Shown here one piece after another: positions 4,504 through 11,010 of a stretch of DNA of 16,549 nucleotides. Position 1 is the first letter of the stretch, and each line of letters opens with the position of its first letter. This DNA is from a bacterium. GTDB taxonomy: Bacteria > BMS3Abin14. The DNA lies in the NCBI GenBank assembly GCA_029210545.1, contig JARGFV010000053.1, positions 1 through 16,549 on the forward strand. Reading direction: 5' to 3'. The notes under the pieces are model-generated. The model did no database searches. It had not been told where the DNA came from and saw nothing but the letters and a program-made list of their open reading frames with translations. The position numbers and the translations under genes were made by a program.

Positions 4504-5280
4504 ATGCGCATCATCGCGGCTCTCGATTGGGTGGGGACTCGAACCCTGTCCTACATGGACGAAGCGGGAACGGGCGTCCTCCTGTTTCTCAAGGTCCTGC
4601 GCGGCCTTTTTCATCGTCCCTTTCCCCTGAAACTGACCCTCGAACAGATGGAAGAGGTCGGGGTCCGTTCCCTTCCCGTTGTCCTCATCACGGCCATCTT
4701 CACCGGGGCGGTCCTTGCCCTCCAGACCTACAGCGGTTTCAAGCGGTTCGGCGCGGAAGGGCTGGTGGGGACGGTGGTGGCCCTTTCCATGACCCGGGAG
4801 CTGGGCCCCGTTCTCGCCAGCATCATGGTGGCGGGACGGGTCGGGTCGTCCATGGCCGCCGAGCTCGGCACCATGCGGGTCACCGAGCAGATCGACGCCC
4901 TGATCACCCTGGCTACCGATCCGGTGCGCTACCTCGTCCTTCCACGCTTCATCGCGGGGCTGTTCATGCTCCCCATCCTTGTGGTGTTCGCCGATCTCAT
5001 CGGGATCATGGGTGGATATTTTGTCGCTGTGAATGTCCTGGGCACCAGCAGCACCACCTACATCAACAGGACCCTCCAGTACCTGGAGTTTTCAGACGTT
5101 TCGGTGGGACTGGTCAAGGCGGCGGTGTTCGGGATGATCATTTCCCTCGTGGGGTGCCAGATGGGCTTTTTCACCGAGGGCGGCGCGGAAGGGGTTGGAC
5201 GGGCGACCACAAAAGCGGTGGTGGGAGCCTCCATCCTTATCCTCATCTCCAACTATTTCCTCACCGCTCTCCTTTTCTGA
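4504..5280 (+). CDS. mlaE: MlaE-family ABC transporter permease
   Basis: Inner-membrane permease of an MCE-type lipid transporter (retrograde phospholipid transport, Mla pathway). The 258 residues include the conserved GVRSLPVVLITAIFTGAVLA segment, an amphipathic N-terminal region and about five hydrophobic segments. The family block LGPVLASIMVAGRVGSSMAAELGTM is easy to see, as is the C-terminal GCQMGFFTEGGAEGVGRATT. It overlaps mlaF by one base (TGATG) and works with that ATPase. No clear Shine-Dalgarno sequence precedes ATG 4504; the pyrimidine-rich repeat ends 15 bp upstream. The family start pattern supports this ATG, but a nearby downstream start cannot be excluded. Function follows from family knowledge; the exact lipid is unknown. 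Confidence 0.93.
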   Translation: MRIIAALDWVGTRTLSYMDEAGTGVLLFLKVLRGLFHRPFPLKLTLEQMEEVGVRSLPVVLITAIFTGAVLALQTYSGFKRFGAEGLVGTVVALSMTRELGPVLASIMVAGRVGSSMAAELGTMRVTEQIDALITLATDPVRYLVLPRFIAGLFMLPILVVFADLIGIMGGYFVAVNVLGTSSTTYINRTLQYLEFSDVSVGLVKAAVFGMIISLVGCQMGFFTEGGAEGVGRATTKAVVGASILILISNYFLTALLF

Positions 5281-6041
5281 TGAACGAAACCTCGACAATA
5301 AAGGTCAGGGACCTGAAAAAATCCTTCGGCGACAAGGTCGTCCTGGACGGTGTGAACGTGGACATCCGGCCCGGCGAGTCCGTCGTGGTCATCGGACAGA
5401 GCGGGGTGGGCAAAAGCGTCCTCATAAAGTGCATCATCGGCATTCTCAAACCCGATTCCGGGACCATCGAGATCGACGGCCAACTCGTCACCGCTCCGGG
5501 CTTTAAAGAGTGGGACAGCGTCCGCCGAAAGTTCGGAATGCTGTTCCAGTACGCGGCCCTGTTCGACTCCCTGAAAGTCTGGGAGAATGTAGGGTTCGCC
5601 CTTCTCCAGCACACCAGGATGACAACCCAGCAGGTCAAGGAACTGGCCGAGGAAAAGCTGCGCATGGTGGGCCTGCCCGGCATCCTGGACCTCATGCCGT
5701 CGGAACTTTCAGGCGGGATGCGCAAGCGGGTGGGCCTCGCCAGGGCCATCGCCATTGAACCTGCGATCATGCTCTACGACGAACCCACCACAGGGCTCGA
5801 TCCAATCCGGGCCGACTCCATCAACGATCTCATCATCCAGCTGAGGGAAGAGCTCGGGGTCGCCTCCATCACCATTACCCACGACATGGTGAGCGCCTAC
5901 AAGATCGCCGACCGTATCACCATGCTCTACAAGGGAAAACTCATCGCCACAGGAACTCCCGACGAGATCCGGAGTTCGGACAACCCCTTTGTCCAGCAGT
6001 TCATCCACGGAAAAGCGGAGGGGCCGATAAGGGATGAATAA
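5280..6041 (+). CDS. mlaF: MlaF-family ABC transporter ATPase
   Basis: ATPase that powers the MlaE permease. It is 253 residues. Walker A is GQSGVGKS (39-46), the signature is LSGGM (143-147), and Walker B is IMLYDEP with D167 and catalytic E168, followed by TTGLDP and the H-switch in ITHDM. The R-K-R residues after the signature (LSGGMRKRVGLARAI) are typical of the MlaF subfamily. ATG 5280 shares one base with the mlaE stop codon, showing translational coupling. The frame is open back to 4527, inside mlaE, but that extension is an overlapping-frame artefact. Downstream is a 231-bp gap before mlaD. Confidence 0.95.
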   Translation: MNETSTIKVRDLKKSFGDKVVLDGVNVDIRPGESVVVIGQSGVGKSVLIKCIIGILKPDSGTIEIDGQLVTAPGFKEWDSVRRKFGMLFQYAALFDSLKVWENVGFALLQHTRMTTQQVKELAEEKLRMVGLPGILDLMPSELSGGMRKRVGLARAIAIEPAIMLYDEPTTGLDPIRADSINDLIIQLREELGVASITITHDMVSAYKIADRITMLYKGKLIATGTPDEIRSSDNPFVQQFIHGKAEGPIRDE

Positions 6042-6272
6042 GCTGCAGCGGTGCAGCCCATGTTCCTCCGGAACGAGGGGGAGAGGGCGAGGGGGAGACG
6101 GGGAGAAAGATCTTTGAAATTCCTCCACCTATGAAAAGCAGAAGACACAAAAGCCCGGTGGCCTTGCTATTTAAAGGGGAAAAAGCATATTCTTGGAAGA
6201 TTGGTCCAGGCCCGATTTTCTCCTGACTACCGGCTCCTGGATTCTGGCTCCCGGATTATATGAGAGAAATCC
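6042..6272. repeat. mlaF-mlaD gap with G-rich 8-bp and CTCCTGG-type 7-bp repeats
   Basis: No gene seen. Between 6074 and 6103 the + strand is a purine-rich G-run array with the unit CGAGGGGG appearing twice. At 6220-6254 there are five 7-bp units: CTCCTGA, CTACCGG, CTCCTGG, ATTCTGG and CTCCCGG. The 3' end carries GAGAG six bases before ATG 6273, the likely mlaD ribosome binding site. The gap is long for an operon that couples mlaE and mlaF by one base; the repeats look like later additions. Confidence 0.7.
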
Positions 6273-7793
6273 ATGAGAAGTTTCAAGACAGAAACATATG
6301 TCGGCCTTTTCGTCCTCACGGGGTTCCTCATCTTCATATGGGGAACAACCCAGATCACCAACCTGGGCGATGACGGAGGGTACGAGCTTTACGCCGTCTT
6401 CGACAACGCCGCGGGCCTCGACATCAACGCCCCCGTGCGCATGGTCGGTGTCAACATCGGACGGGTCCGCTCCATCGATATCACCGACAGAAAGGCCTGG
6501 CTGGCCCTCTTAATCGATAAGGACCGTCAGGTTGACCGGAACGCCACGGTCTCCATCCGCAGCCAGGGCATCCTGGGCGACAAGTTCGTAGGCGTGGACC
6601 CCGGGGACAGCGGAAGTTACTACAACCCGGGCGACACCATCACACGCACACGCGCCGGCGCCGATCTCGACAGGCTCATGGATTCGCTCCAGACGGCCGG
6701 CCAGGACCTTTCAGCCATCCTTTCCAGCCTCCGCAAGGTCATCGGAACCGAGGACGGCGAACGATCCATGGCCGAGATCCTGGAAAACACCCGCGCCCTT
6801 TCATCCAACCTTTCCGCCATGGTCAGCGACAACCGGGACCGGGTAGACAACATCATGGTCAACCTGGACCACCTGACCTCGAAGCTGGACGGGATCGCAG
6901 GGGATAACAGGGAGGATATCAGGGAGGTCATCGCCAACATCCGGCAGGTCACCGAGGACATCCGGGACGACCTGCCCCGTCTCACGCAAAAGCTGGAAGG
7001 CGCCGCCGACCAGGTGTCCGGGGTCCTTTCGGACAACCGGGAGTCGGTCAAGGTGACCGTCGAGCAGATCAGGAAGGACGCCGAGCTGCTGGAGGAGACC
7101 CTCGCGTCGCTCCGTACGGTGGCCCGGCGTATCGAGAGCGGCGAGGGAACGGTGGGCAAGCTCATCAACGAGGACGAAACCTATATCAGCCTCAACGAGA
7201 CCCTCGGCAGCCTCAGCAAGGCCATGAAGAAGGGGGAACAGCTCCAGATCAACCTCGACATCCACGGCCACTACCTCAGCGAGATCGAGGGGACCAAGGG
7301 GTACCTGACCATGGATATCAAGCCGACTCCCGACAAGTTCTACCGGCTTGAGCTGGTGGACGACCCGGAGGGGCTCAGAGACTGGACCAACACCACCGTC
7401 ACGGAGGTAATTCCCCCGGCGCCCCCCACTACAACCATCACGGACGAAATCCGCTACCAGGATCGCCTCAAGTTCTCCATTGAACTCGGCCGCAGGATCC
7501 ACGACACCGTTTTCCGCCTCGGATATATCGAATCGGCCTTCGGTTTCGGTGTCGACCGCTACTTCGCCGGCGATGACATGAGACTGTCACTCGACGCATG
7601 GGAACTGGATCGGGATGAGAACGCCCGGGTACGGGTGGCCGCGTCCTTCAGGTTCTGGGATCTTTTCCACCTGGACGTGGGGGCCGAGGACATCATCAAC
7701 GAGAACCGCGACCCCATGTTCATGGTCGGCTTCGGTCTGTCGTTCATCGACGAGGATCTGAAGTACCTCCTGGCCAAATCTCCCATTCCCTGA
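6273..7793 (+). CDS. mlaD: MlaD/MCE-domain lipid transport protein, long form
   Basis: Periplasmic, membrane-anchored substrate-binding subunit of the MlaEF transporter. A signal-anchor (about residues 9-28, GLFVLTGFLIFIWG) is followed by one MCE domain (about 38-118; core AVFDNAAGLDINAPVRMVG, then GVNIGRV and the GILGDKFV turn). Residues about 130-300 are mostly helical, and DNR recurs at 186, 211 and 254 in similar settings. The last 170 residues are rich in alternating aromatic and charged strands (FYRLELVDD, FSIELGRRI, FRLGYIESAFGFGVD) and look like a beta-strand module similar to outer-membrane protein strands. At 506 residues it is far longer than E. coli MlaD (183). GAGAG precedes ATG 6273. 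radA begins 5 bp after. MCE assignment is firm; the C-terminal interpretation is inference. Confidence 0.9.
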   Translation: MRSFKTETYVGLFVLTGFLIFIWGTTQITNLGDDGGYELYAVFDNAAGLDINAPVRMVGVNIGRVRSIDITDRKAWLALLIDKDRQVDRNATVSIRSQGILGDKFVGVDPGDSGSYYNPGDTITRTRAGADLDRLMDSLQTAGQDLSAILSSLRKVIGTEDGERSMAEILENTRALSSNLSAMVSDNRDRVDNIMVNLDHLTSKLDGIAGDNREDIREVIANIRQVTEDIRDDLPRLTQKLEGAADQVSGVLSDNRESVKVTVEQIRKDAELLEETLASLRTVARRIESGEGTVGKLINEDETYISLNETLGSLSKAMKKGEQLQINLDIHGHYLSEIEGTKGYLTMDIKPTPDKFYRLELVDDPEGLRDWTNTTVTEVIPPAPPTTTITDEIRYQDRLKFSIELGRRIHDTVFRLGYIESAFGFGVDRYFAGDDMRLSLDAWELDRDENARVRVAASFRFWDLFHLDVGAEDIINENRDPMFMVGFGLSFIDEDLKYLLAKSPIP

Positions 7794-7797
7794 CGCC

Positions 7798-9150
7798 ATG
7801 GCCCGCCGCAGCACCCTCTTCGTATGCCAGAACTGCGGCTCCACCTCTCCCAAGTGGATGGGCCGCTGCCCGGACTGCTCCACGTGGGGCTCCCTCCTGG
7901 AGGAAGCGCGCCAGGACAGCCGTTCTACCGGTTCCCGACCGGCGGCCCTCGAGCCCCTGCCTCTGACCAGCATTCCTGAAGATTCCTCCCAACGCGTCCC
8001 CTCCGGTCTTGGTGAACTGGACCGGGTCCTGGGCGGGGGAATGGTCCCCGGCTCGGCCATCCTCCTGGGCGGCGATCCGGGTATCGGAAAATCAACCCTC
8101 ATCCTCCAGATCCTGTCCGGACTGGCCGGCGGAGGGCGCAAGGTCCTGTACGTGACCGCGGAAGAGTCCATGAGGCAGATCCGGATGAGAGCGCTGAGGA
8201 CAGGATCGGAGAGCGGGAATCTCATGGTCCTGGCAGAGACCGATTTTTCCGCCGTCGCGGAAACGATCAGGGCCTCGTCCCCCGATACGGTGGTGCTGGA
8301 CTCCGTCCAGGCCCTGTATCATCCTGACATCGGCTCATCTCCGGGAAGCATAAGCCAGGTCAGGGAGATAGCCAACGTGGCCGTGGGCATCGCCAAGAGC
8401 ATGGAGATCACCACCTGGCTCATCGGCCACGTCACCAAGGAGGGCTCCATCGCCGGACCGAGGGCCCTCGAGCACCTGGTGGACACCGTGCTTTACTTCG
8501 AGGGGGACTCCACCCACGCCTACCGGATCCTCCGCGCGGTGAAAAACCGTTACGGTTCCACCAACGAGATCGCCCTTCTCGAGATGACCGGCCAGGGGCT
8601 CGTGGAGGTCAGCGATCCCGCCGGGCTGTTCCTTCCCTCCTCCGGCGCAAATTCACCCGGCTCCACTGTCGTCATGGGGCTGGAGGGATCGAGGACCCTC
8701 CTCGTCGAGGTCCAGGCCCTGGTGGCCCAGACACCGTTCGCAAACCCCAGACGCACTGTTTCGGGAGCTGACCTGTCCCGGGTGCTGCTGATACTGGCGG
8801 TCCTGGACCGGCGCGCGGGGATCGGGTCCGGAGGCATGGACGTTTTCGTCAACGTCGCGGGGGGGCTGCGGCTCACCGAACCGGCGGCGGACCTTGGAAT
8901 CGCCCTGGCCCTGGTGTCGAGCATGTGGGAAAAACCGATGATCGAAAAAACCGCCGTGTGCGGGGAATTGGGCCTGTCGGGCGAAGTGCGCCCCGTCATG
9001 CGGCTGGAGAGCCGGCTGCGCGAGGCGGCCAGGCTTGGTCTGACCCGGGCCATCGTCCCCGCTGCCGGTGCCGACAAGCTGCCAGGGATAAAAGGCATGG
9101 AGGTCGTCCCGGTAGAAACGATCGAGGACGCCATCGAGGCATCTTTTTGA
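7798..9150 (+). CDS. radA: DNA repair protein RadA (Sms)
   Basis: RecA-related helicase that processes recombination intermediates by branch migration. An N-terminal zinc finger is formed by C10, C13, C24 and C27 (CQNCG...CPDC). The ATPase domain has Walker A GGDPGIGKS at 91-99 and a VVLDSVQALY Walker B. The RadA-specific KNRYG (249-253) is a Tyr variant of the usual KNRFG. A C-terminal Lon-protease-like domain follows (about 285-450; MDVFVNVAGGLRLTEPAADL, without the Lon catalytic Ser). At 450 residues the length is normal. It starts 5 bp after mlaD with no visible Shine-Dalgarno sequence, so coupling is likely. The identification is secure. Confidence 0.97.
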   Translation: MARRSTLFVCQNCGSTSPKWMGRCPDCSTWGSLLEEARQDSRSTGSRPAALEPLPLTSIPEDSSQRVPSGLGELDRVLGGGMVPGSAILLGGDPGIGKSTLILQILSGLAGGGRKVLYVTAEESMRQIRMRALRTGSESGNLMVLAETDFSAVAETIRASSPDTVVLDSVQALYHPDIGSSPGSISQVREIANVAVGIAKSMEITTWLIGHVTKEGSIAGPRALEHLVDTVLYFEGDSTHAYRILRAVKNRYGSTNEIALLEMTGQGLVEVSDPAGLFLPSSGANSPGSTVVMGLEGSRTLLVEVQALVAQTPFANPRRTVSGADLSRVLLILAVLDRRAGIGSGGMDVFVNVAGGLRLTEPAADLGIALALVSSMWEKPMIEKTAVCGELGLSGEVRPVMRLESRLREAARLGLTRAIVPAAGADKLPGIKGMEVVPVETIEDAIEASF

Positions 9151-9413
9151 AGTCATGGCAAAAAAACCTGCCATGTCTCCAGAAAGATGCCTGTAATTAC
9201 TCTTCCCTTCGAAACAGCAAATAAATTCCAATTTGGAACCATGACGTTAACCGAAAAACACCAGGGAACCCGGGGGGAACATGGCAGATTACCGGGCCAG
9301 GCAATCATCGGCCTTGCGGCTGTTTGTCTCTCCGCGTCGCCCCATCGCCGCGTCACCGCGTCTAAACCCAAGCTCCCTCTTCCTCCATCGCCACGATTCT
9401 GTATAATACCGGC
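9151..9413. other. radA to Sec-cytochrome gap; hairpin and candidate -10 box
   Basis: No gene seen. Immediately after the radA stop, CATGGCA (9154-9160) pairs with TGCCATG (9169-9175) around an A-rich loop; without a 3' T-run on the + strand it is a weak terminator candidate at best. The block from 9181 to about 9260 is AT-richer than its surroundings. A perfect TATAAT lies at 9402-9407, six bases before ATG 9414; no good -35 hexamer is seen 16-18 bp upstream. Confidence 0.5.
9402..9407 (+). promoter_or_regulatory. Candidate -10 element (TATAAT) of the Sec-cytochrome gene
   Basis: The hexamer matches the sigma-70 -10 consensus exactly in otherwise GC-rich DNA. With usual spacing, transcription would begin at or next to the A of ATG 9414, giving a leaderless message, which fits the lack of a Shine-Dalgarno sequence before that ATG. 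The -35 position reads CTTCCT or TTCCTC, a poor match, so this is tentative. Confidence 0.4.
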
Positions 9414-10934
9414 ATGACAACGATGGCACCCGGATATAAGCTTCCTTCCCCTCTTCTCCTTTTCCTGGCTCCCATCCTTTTCGCACTCCTTCTTTTCGCG
9501 GCGCTGAACTTCAGCTGCAGGAGCGCCAAGGCGCCCCCGAGCGGCGAGATCACCCTCTTTTACACATCGGACGTGGGCGGGCGTCTTGATCCCTGCGGGT
9601 GAAAGACCGTTCAGGTGGGGGGTCTTCCCCGCCGAGCCACCTTCCTTTCCAACCAGAGGGCCAAGGGCCTGCCCGACCTGACCCTCGACTCCGGCAACAT
9701 CTTCGCGGACCGCCCCCCCTCCGAGGCTTCCCTGGAGTCCACCCTTGAAAAGGCCCAGCTTTTGGTGCGGATCATGTCCCAACTGGGATACGAAGCCGCC
9801 GCGGTAGGCGAGATGGAGCTTTACCTGGGTCTCGAAAACCTCCGGGCCCTGAGCGAAAAGGCTTCATTCAGGTTCCTTTCCGCTAACCTGACAGGCCCCG
9901 ATGGCGCGCTTCTCTTTGATTCCCACCGCGTTTTCCGAAAGGGGTCCCTTACGGTTGGTGTCGTCGGGCTGACATCGGCGCCATCCAACCAGTCCCTCTT
10001 TGAGCAGCGCATGGGTCAAAGCCGGGTCATTGATCCCGTCAAGGCTGCAGCGGACGTCGTTTCCGGGATCAGGAACCGTTGCGACCTCGTTGTAGTCCTG
10101 TCCAGCCTGGGATACGACCAGGACCTCGACCTTGCCAGGGCCGTTAACGGGATCGACATCATCATCGGCGCCAAGAACCGCCGGTTCATGAAAAAACCGG
10201 TGATCGAAGAGGGCACCATGGTGACCACCGGTTATTTCCAGGGGCGGGCGGTGGGTCAGATCACCGTTACCCTCCAGGGGGATCACCGGGGCTGGGCCTC
10301 AAGGGAGGAACTGGCCTTTATCCGGAGGCAGATCGACACGGCCCGTGAAAGGGTCCGGACCCCGGGCGACGAGGAACGGCTGGCGAGGCTCCTTGAAAAC
10401 CAGGAAAAGGCGCAAGCGCTGACCCTTTACGACGCCGACATGGTCAACCTCACTCCCGATTTCACCGGCGACCCCGATGTGGCCGGAATCATAAGCGCCT
10501 ACCGTCAGGGCCTCAATGCAAAACAGCCTGGCGGGACCACGGGCGGCGGTGAAGAAGGGCCTGTACGCTACATCGGCGCTGAAAAGTGCCGGGGATGCCA
10601 CGAAGGTCGATACCGTTTCTGGTCCCGGACACCTCACCGCGCGGCGCTGAGCACCCTGGCCCTTAAGGACGCCGATGCCGACCCCGACTGCGTCCCCTGC
10701 CACGTCACAGGCTACGAACGGCTCACCGGGTACTGGCCCAAGGCGCCGCGAAGGGACCTCGAGGGTGTCCAGTGCGAATCGTGTCACGGCATCGGCTCGC
10801 TCCACGCGGCCACACCCGAGCTGCACAGCCTCCTTCACCTCCCCGCCGCGCCCCAGTGCATCGACTGCCACACGGAGGAACAGGACGACGATTTCGATTT
10901 CCTCCGCGATAAGGTGAAAGTGTGCGCGGAGTAA
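9414..10934 (+). CDS. Selenocysteine-containing UshA-like tetraheme c-type cytochrome lipoprotein
   Basis: Probably an exported redox protein. The reading frame continues through TGA at 9600-9602 (codon 63) with no frame change, giving 506 residues if the TGA is read as Sec. Residues 14-34 form a hydrophobic signal segment ending at C35 (LNFSC, an imperfect lipobox). The UshA/5'-nucleotidase N-terminal motif is split by the TGA: TSDVGGRLDPCG before it and KTVQVGGLPRRAT after it, so both sides belong to one conserved motif and the site is C61-G62-U63. The metallophosphatase-like domain (about 45-290) has lost its usual metal ligands (GEME for GNHE at 132-135, SSLG at 230-233, GAKN at 252-255). 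Four heme sites follow: CRGCH (392), CVPCH (426), CESCH (454) and CIDCH (482), resembling cytochrome c554-type modules. No Shine-Dalgarno sequence precedes ATG 9414; ATG 9423 is an alternative. A nonsense mutation is the competing reading but explains neither the SECIS-like hairpin nor the intact downstream frame. Confidence 0.87.
9600..9602 (+). other. In-frame UGA predicted to encode selenocysteine (codon 63)
   Basis: TGA lies between DPCG and KTVQVGG in a frame that is otherwise open for another 1,332 bases and carries four heme motifs. From memory of the family, a Cys is expected here (PCGC), and Sec/Cys exchange is the usual pattern in bacterial selenoproteins. A SECIS-like hairpin follows immediately. 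Confidence 0.87.
9603..9633 (+). promoter_or_regulatory. Bacterial SECIS-like hairpin following the UGA
   Basis: Two mutually exclusive folds are visible. In the better one, 9614-9620 (GGTGGGG) pairs with 9627-9633 (CCCCGCC; one G-U pair), leaving the six-base apical loop GGTCTT. This GGUCU lies exactly 18 nt after the UGA, the same loop core and distance I recall for the E. coli fdhF SECIS recognised by SelB. The alternative pairs AAGACC (9603-9608) with GGTCTT (9621-9626). The element is inside the coding region, as expected for bacteria. Confidence 0.82.
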
Positions 10935-10964
10935 GCAAAATGACCATTACTTCCGAACACGTTC

Positions 10965-10996
10965 CGGAGTGACGGGGTATCGGAGTAACGGGGTAA
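10965..10996 (+). repeat. 8-bp repeat array, four units (left flank of the four-helix-bundle gene)
   Basis: Units CGGAGTGA, CGGGGTAT, CGGAGTAA and CGGGGTAA run head to tail with no gaps, 31 bp after the cytochrome stop codon. Same family as the arrays near 4313, 12558 and 13793. The inverted counterpart lies at 11491-11522, on the other side of the minus-strand gene. Confidence 0.85.
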
Positions 10997-11010
10997 CAGC
11001 ATTAAACATA

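Follow-up and report, generated by a model that had tools for sequence, protein, structure and literature searches.

UshA-like selenoproteins of COG0737 with a CxU motif have been catalogued in ocean metagenomes (PMC2398784); the table of that paper gives the CxU motif, and its discussion omits the UshA-like proteins from the families with Cys-based redox motifs. Later reviews also include the family, and PMC13188914 gives NF041198 with CxU. Both papers are in accordance with the original prediction, which stated that such selenoproteins were already catalogued. Our literature search on UshA-like (PCGU) selenoproteins returned catalogue entries only, in which the function is not given. The curated model NF041198 (UshA_like_PCGU) has 519 positions and includes a cytochrome part. 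Here we describe a gene of this kind in the window, that is, in the whole analysed stretch of 16,549 nucleotides, which is contig 53 of a MAG (G000; 2.72 Mb, 241 contigs, 97.5% complete).

Results

Translation of the gene (Table 1) gives a single frame whose sole interruption is one TGA at codon 63, situated within the motif DPCG-U-KTVQVGGLPRR. With TGA read as Sec the product has 506 residues; with TGA read as a stop, 62 codons (9414-9599) and an ORF of 439 amino acids starting at GTG 9615 are obtained. Translation and ORF calls thus reproduce two predicted features, a frame broken only by the TGA with halves of one motif on either side, and the short peptide and truncated protein into which a standard caller would split it. 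Wherever a gene caller takes UGA as a stop, proteins of this kind will be annotated without their signal sequence and active site. A good ribosome-binding site is not visible at either of the two possible ATG codons, so the choice between them was left unsettled, and a scan upstream of the gene detected no promoter-like site. The N-terminal export-type segment that had been proposed is present in the AF2 model (pLDDT 85.7, pTM 0.83) as a hydrophobic helix, which may be an export signal or a membrane or lipid anchor; in the alignment of phylum-mates a Cys comes after this helix.

Table 1. Positions of the gene and its features in the window.
Feature	Position	Strand	Details
UshA-like (PCGU) selenoprotein-tetraheme cytochrome, predicted	9414..10934	+	506 aa, Sec at residue 63; start ATG 9414 or 9423
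N-terminal hydrophobic helix, residues 13-34	9450..9515	+	AF2 model, alignment
Metallophosphoesterase-fold domain (5'-nucleotidase/SoxB type), residues 42-345, without metal ligands	9537..10448	+	
C61-G62-U63 motif, UGA 9600-9602 read as Sec	9594..9602	+	Cys/Sec in relatives, phylum-mates
SECIS-like mRNA hairpin	9609..9637	+	7-bp core stem 9614-9620/9627-9633, apical GGUCUU 9621-9626
Tetraheme cytochrome c554-type domain, residues 383-496	10560..10901	+	PF13435 60.7 bits, alignment
Heme motif 1 CRGCH (C392-H396)	10587..10601	+	translation, alignment
Heme motif 2 CVPCH (C426-H430)	10689..10703	+	translation, alignment
Heme motif 3 CESCH (C454-H458)	10773..10787	+	translation, alignment
Heme motif 4 CIDCH (C482-H486)	10857..10871	+	translation, alignment

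The protein scores 333.1 bits against NF041198 (curated equivalog cut-off 275) and 325.5 bits in the genome search, where a second stretch, positions 333-518 of the model, matched with 130 bits. Since the cytochrome region makes up this end of the model, the fusion of a Sec domain with a cytochrome belongs to the known family. The PCG-(U/C) motif of the family is present, and the gene is an additional member of an already catalogued family whose function is the unsolved part. Exceptions to the motif occur among the homologues: some heme-less paralogs described below, and L131 (G128, contig 168; PSGR), a heme-bearing member that has lost both Cys and Sec and in which DPSGRF replaces EPCGUF. The sample comprised 395 genomes of the phylum to which one Desulfobacterales genome belongs; matches reached E 1e-30 or better in 170 of them, and 68 scored above the curated cut-off.

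The TGA could be attributed either to decoding as Sec or to a true stop or sequencing error, in which case the gene would be a pseudogene or encode an ordinary Cys protein. The second explanation does not agree with the distribution of the codon: all eight phylum-mates having the N-terminal domain (eight of the 12 genomes of the phylum) contain one in-frame TGA, each within DPCG-UGA followed by GGLPRR, and most N-domain copies in Desulfobacterota, among the matches listed, carry one as well. The frame downstream of the TGA is also conserved, all hemes included. The proposed check for Cys or Sec at residue 63 was made on 60 relatives and gave Sec in 37 and Cys in 23, in support of the predicted Sec form with a CGU site. 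G69 and G70, beside the Cys-Gly-Sec/Cys loop, are invariant in all 60, and the invariance of Cys, Gly and GG is partly by construction because the relatives were chosen by the C-G-(C/UGA) motif. In the tree the eight copies from the phylum form one well-supported clade within the Sec-rich part, and the Cys forms come chiefly from Armatimonadota, Planctomycetota and Myxococcota.

A hairpin follows the UGA, with the sequence GGUCU (9621-9625) in its loop 18 nt past the codon. RNAfold of 9598-9640 gave -21.7 kcal/mol with z -2.2, and 9 of 200 shuffled sequences were equally stable; for 9590-9660 z was only -0.7, and Sec genes resemble Cys genes in mean fold energy. Fold energy by itself is weak evidence and not decisive, in contrast to a position-specific comparative test of the stem, which is strong. 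Rfam cmscan of 9000-11000 at E up to 1 found no SECIS family, and for this reason the hairpin was judged by comparison. Stems of 4 bp or longer closing a loop with GGU, the second Gly codon, were present in 34 of the 37 Sec genes and in two of the 23 Cys genes, with the GG(L/V/I) codons at constant spacing from the UGA. GGUCU at +21 was found in 24/37 Sec and 1/23 Cys genes (Fisher p 2e-6), and within the Leu-only subset in 24/29 and 1/6 (p 0.004), the two p-values not being independent tests as the members are related. When positions are counted from the U of UGA as 0, compensatory pairs occur at nt 20-27 (G-C/C-G/U-G), nt 17-30 (G-C/U-A) and nt 15-32 (G-C/A-U/C-G/U-A). Two genomes of the phylum itself show a change from GUG to AUG in the 5' arm paired with a change from CGC to CGU in the 3' arm, and most heme-less paralogs retain GGCGGUCU at the corresponding position. 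RNAfold and the comparative stem test are both in agreement with the hairpin, apical GGUCUU and 18-nt spacing that were originally described; a hairpin that goes with Sec and not with Cys speaks against a stop or an error.

The original prediction had proposed a search of the genome for selA, selB, selC and selD, and the first three were found: tRNA-Sec (selC; 74.3 bits, anticodon UCA), selB (362.8 bits) and selA (598.5 bits), selA adjoining selB on contig 14. Upstream of the two lies a gene named from its sequence as formate dehydrogenase alpha subunit (L055:1049-4150; contig 14, 23048-26149), which is interrupted in frame only once, by a TGA where Sec is expected (QARI-U-HSATVA), and is thus a second selenoprotein gene of the MAG. 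This second gene, together with selA, selB and tRNA-Sec, further disfavors a stop or error. The fourth gene was not found: no recognisable copy of selD is present in the MAG assembly (below cut-off), and this is the one observation that favors the stop or error. Six of the 12 genomes of the phylum do have selD, each copy with one in-frame TGA, and among those read, three have it adjoining a yedF-like gene. A search of the MAG for this yedF-like neighbor was also negative, in agreement with a gap in the assembly, which would most simply explain the absence of selD. The SelD of these phylum-mates (L056-L061) is itself predicted to contain Sec. We conclude that codon 63, a UGA, almost certainly specifies Sec, a reading strongly supported by the comparison of sequences, and that a stop or sequencing error is highly improbable.

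The N-terminal domain has the fold of 5'-nucleotidases and SoxB (Z 33-35). The 5'-nucleotidase ligands DxH, GD, GNHE, H and GHxH are not found in the protein of the window, where the His of DxH is replaced with G55 (D53-V-G55), the bridging Asp with N95, NH with E133-M134, and two further His with S231 and K254. Positions equivalent to the metal-binding His, Asp and Asn of the Thermus 5'-nucleotidase 2z1a are variable among members of either type, Sec or Cys; the GHSH columns drifted in the MAFFT alignment, so only the first His was used there, together with the HMMER alignment. A Pfam search up to E 1 gave no match to the 5_nucleotid_C domain, the C-terminus being PF13435. The predicted label UshA-like consequently holds for the fold but not for nucleotidase chemistry, as the metal site is not kept.

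The cytochrome domain scores well above the PF13435 cut-off of 20.8 bits and contains four CxxCH motifs. The motifs of the four predicted hemes are therefore present, but their combination with the other features is not special to this gene, as NF041198 includes the cytochrome and 56 of the 60 relatives have it. The heme motifs, His408 and His464 are retained in 55-56 of the 60, and these two conserved His are likely the distal heme ligands. A standalone cytochrome gene with a TGA in another genome (G004, L032) was considered as a Sec gene and rejected, since its TGA is an ordinary stop past the last heme motif.

Some paralogs lack hemes and keep both Sec and the hairpin; CPxU or Cys-less xSGU forms are among them. 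Their existence indicates that the cytochrome is not strictly needed by the Sec domain, and those with Sec and without Cys that the Cys-Sec pair is not the rule for all. Four heme-less genes of Desulfobacterota (L161, L170, L171 and L177) have an in-frame TGA, the GGCGGUCU hairpin and xSGU without a neighboring Cys; the first three score below the NF041198 cut-off and have no match to family 2 at E 1e-20. These four are possibly an uncurated kind of UshA-like selenoprotein. Heme-less L164, L178 and L179 share neighbors with heme-bearing L145-L149, namely a pyrophosphatase-like gene and, for L178, also a rarA-like gene; this pattern suggests that the cytochrome domain was lost or gained without a change of locus.

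Gene order in the phylum is conserved: mla genes and radA, the PCGU gene, dusB and a histidine kinase/sigma-54 regulator pair. In the window the mla-type phospholipid transport genes and radA occupy 4504-9150 upstream of the gene, in an order conserved in several phylum-mates. A gene for a 23S rRNA-intervening-sequence protein (PF05635; 11011-11418, minus strand) lies between the PCGU gene and dusB; it is present at that spot also in G006 and not in the other phylum-mates read. In several Desulfobacterota the PCGU gene is preceded by a rarA-like and followed by a pyrophosphatase-like gene, both named by eye from their sequences. The inspected neighborhoods of phylum-mates and Desulfobacterota revealed no functional partner, the conserved neighbors being uninformative.

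Discussion

Loss or variability of the metal ligands, together with maintenance of the Cys-Gly-Sec/Cys loop and of the heme domain, led us to a redox reading of this protein. The UGA is very probably decoded by SelB and tRNA-Sec, directed by the hairpin immediately downstream, and the exported protein carries a domain of the 5'-nucleotidase/SoxB fold without the dinuclear metal site. The loop that follows the first of the former ligand motifs holds Cys-Gly-Sec, or Cys-Gly-Cys where a relative has no Sec; Sec63 would be the attacking or electron-accepting residue, which Cys61 would usually resolve as a selenenyl-sulfide. The fused tetraheme c554-type domain would transfer electrons between this center and the cytochromes of the periplasmic network. 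We consider it somewhat probable that Sec63 and Cys61 form the reactive center with the hemes moving electrons; Sec decoding and the redox mechanism taken jointly, weighted towards the decoding, are fairly probable. The paralogs with Sec but without Cys suggest that Sec may be the essential partner. On this reading the protein would be a periplasmic oxidoreductase, for which the role of a reductase of oxidised sulfur, selenium or a similar small substrate is likelier than that of a phosphatase. Points that weigh against it are the neighborhood without a functional partner, the absence of selD from the MAG, the heme-less and Cys-less paralogs, and the omission of the UshA-like proteins from the Cys-based redox families in the discussion of PMC2398784.

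It could be argued that the protein is still a hydrolase of a phosphate or thiosulfate ester, like UshA and SoxB, with Sec or Cys as nucleophile or replacement metal ligand and the hemes serving separately. Homology and fold match to both enzymes are clear, the first Asp of DxH is kept in 27 of the 37 Sec members, and scattered members retain single ligands. The remaining ligand positions are nevertheless replaced in the protein of the window and variable in the whole family, and we regard a hydrolase as unlikely. Binding of a soft metal ion by Cys-Gly-Sec is another explanation, the protein then serving in the periplasm as metal chaperone, sensor or electron donor: such binding would suit an exported protein that has a CxC/CxU pair, and some paralogs are heme-less. 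Sec paralogs without Cys, however, have no chelating pair, and no recurring metal-transport gene was recognised in the neighborhoods inspected, so that we find this role rather unlikely.

If the redox reading of the single protein is extended to its relatives, the whole PCGU family may be an unrecognised enzyme class in which a selenol/thiol redox center replaces the dinuclear metal of a metallophosphoesterase fold, usually wired to a tetraheme domain and with Sec alone (xSGU) in some heme-less paralogs. We propose this tentatively, at a little less than even chances; if it is true, a periplasmic redox reaction that is common in anaerobes has gone unrecognised.

Comparison with known systems

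With the Thermus 5'-nucleotidase 2z1a the protein shares the N-terminal metallophosphoesterase fold (rmsd 2.3 across 278 residues, Z 34.9), but in comparison with UshA and 2z1a it has lost the metal ligands, and a tetraheme domain replaces the C-terminal nucleotide-binding domain. The fold is also shared with SoxB 2wdc (Z 34.3; TIGR04486 E 1.7e-18), although the TIGR04486 score of 66.2 bits is below the cut-off of 550 and the metal ligands are not retained. The C-terminal domain resembles cytochrome c554 (PF13435; 1bvb) in passing the PF13435 cut-off and in its four CxxCH, and differs from it in being fused to a Sec domain. UshA-like family 2 (NF049981, CxxU) has in common with our protein a region of the fold and Sec near the corresponding loop, but the score of 59.8 bits is below the cut-off of 140 and the motif is CxU instead of CxxU. 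From NF041198 there is no essential difference: the motif is CxU in both, its last position is occupied by Sec or Cys, and the domain order ends with a cytochrome; the gene adds a member from a small phylum in which all eight copies of the domain have Sec. This family is widespread and rich in Sec, and while its name UshA-like suggests a nucleotidase, the comparison gives a testable redox hypothesis and singles out the residues C61, U63, G69-G70, His408 and His464.
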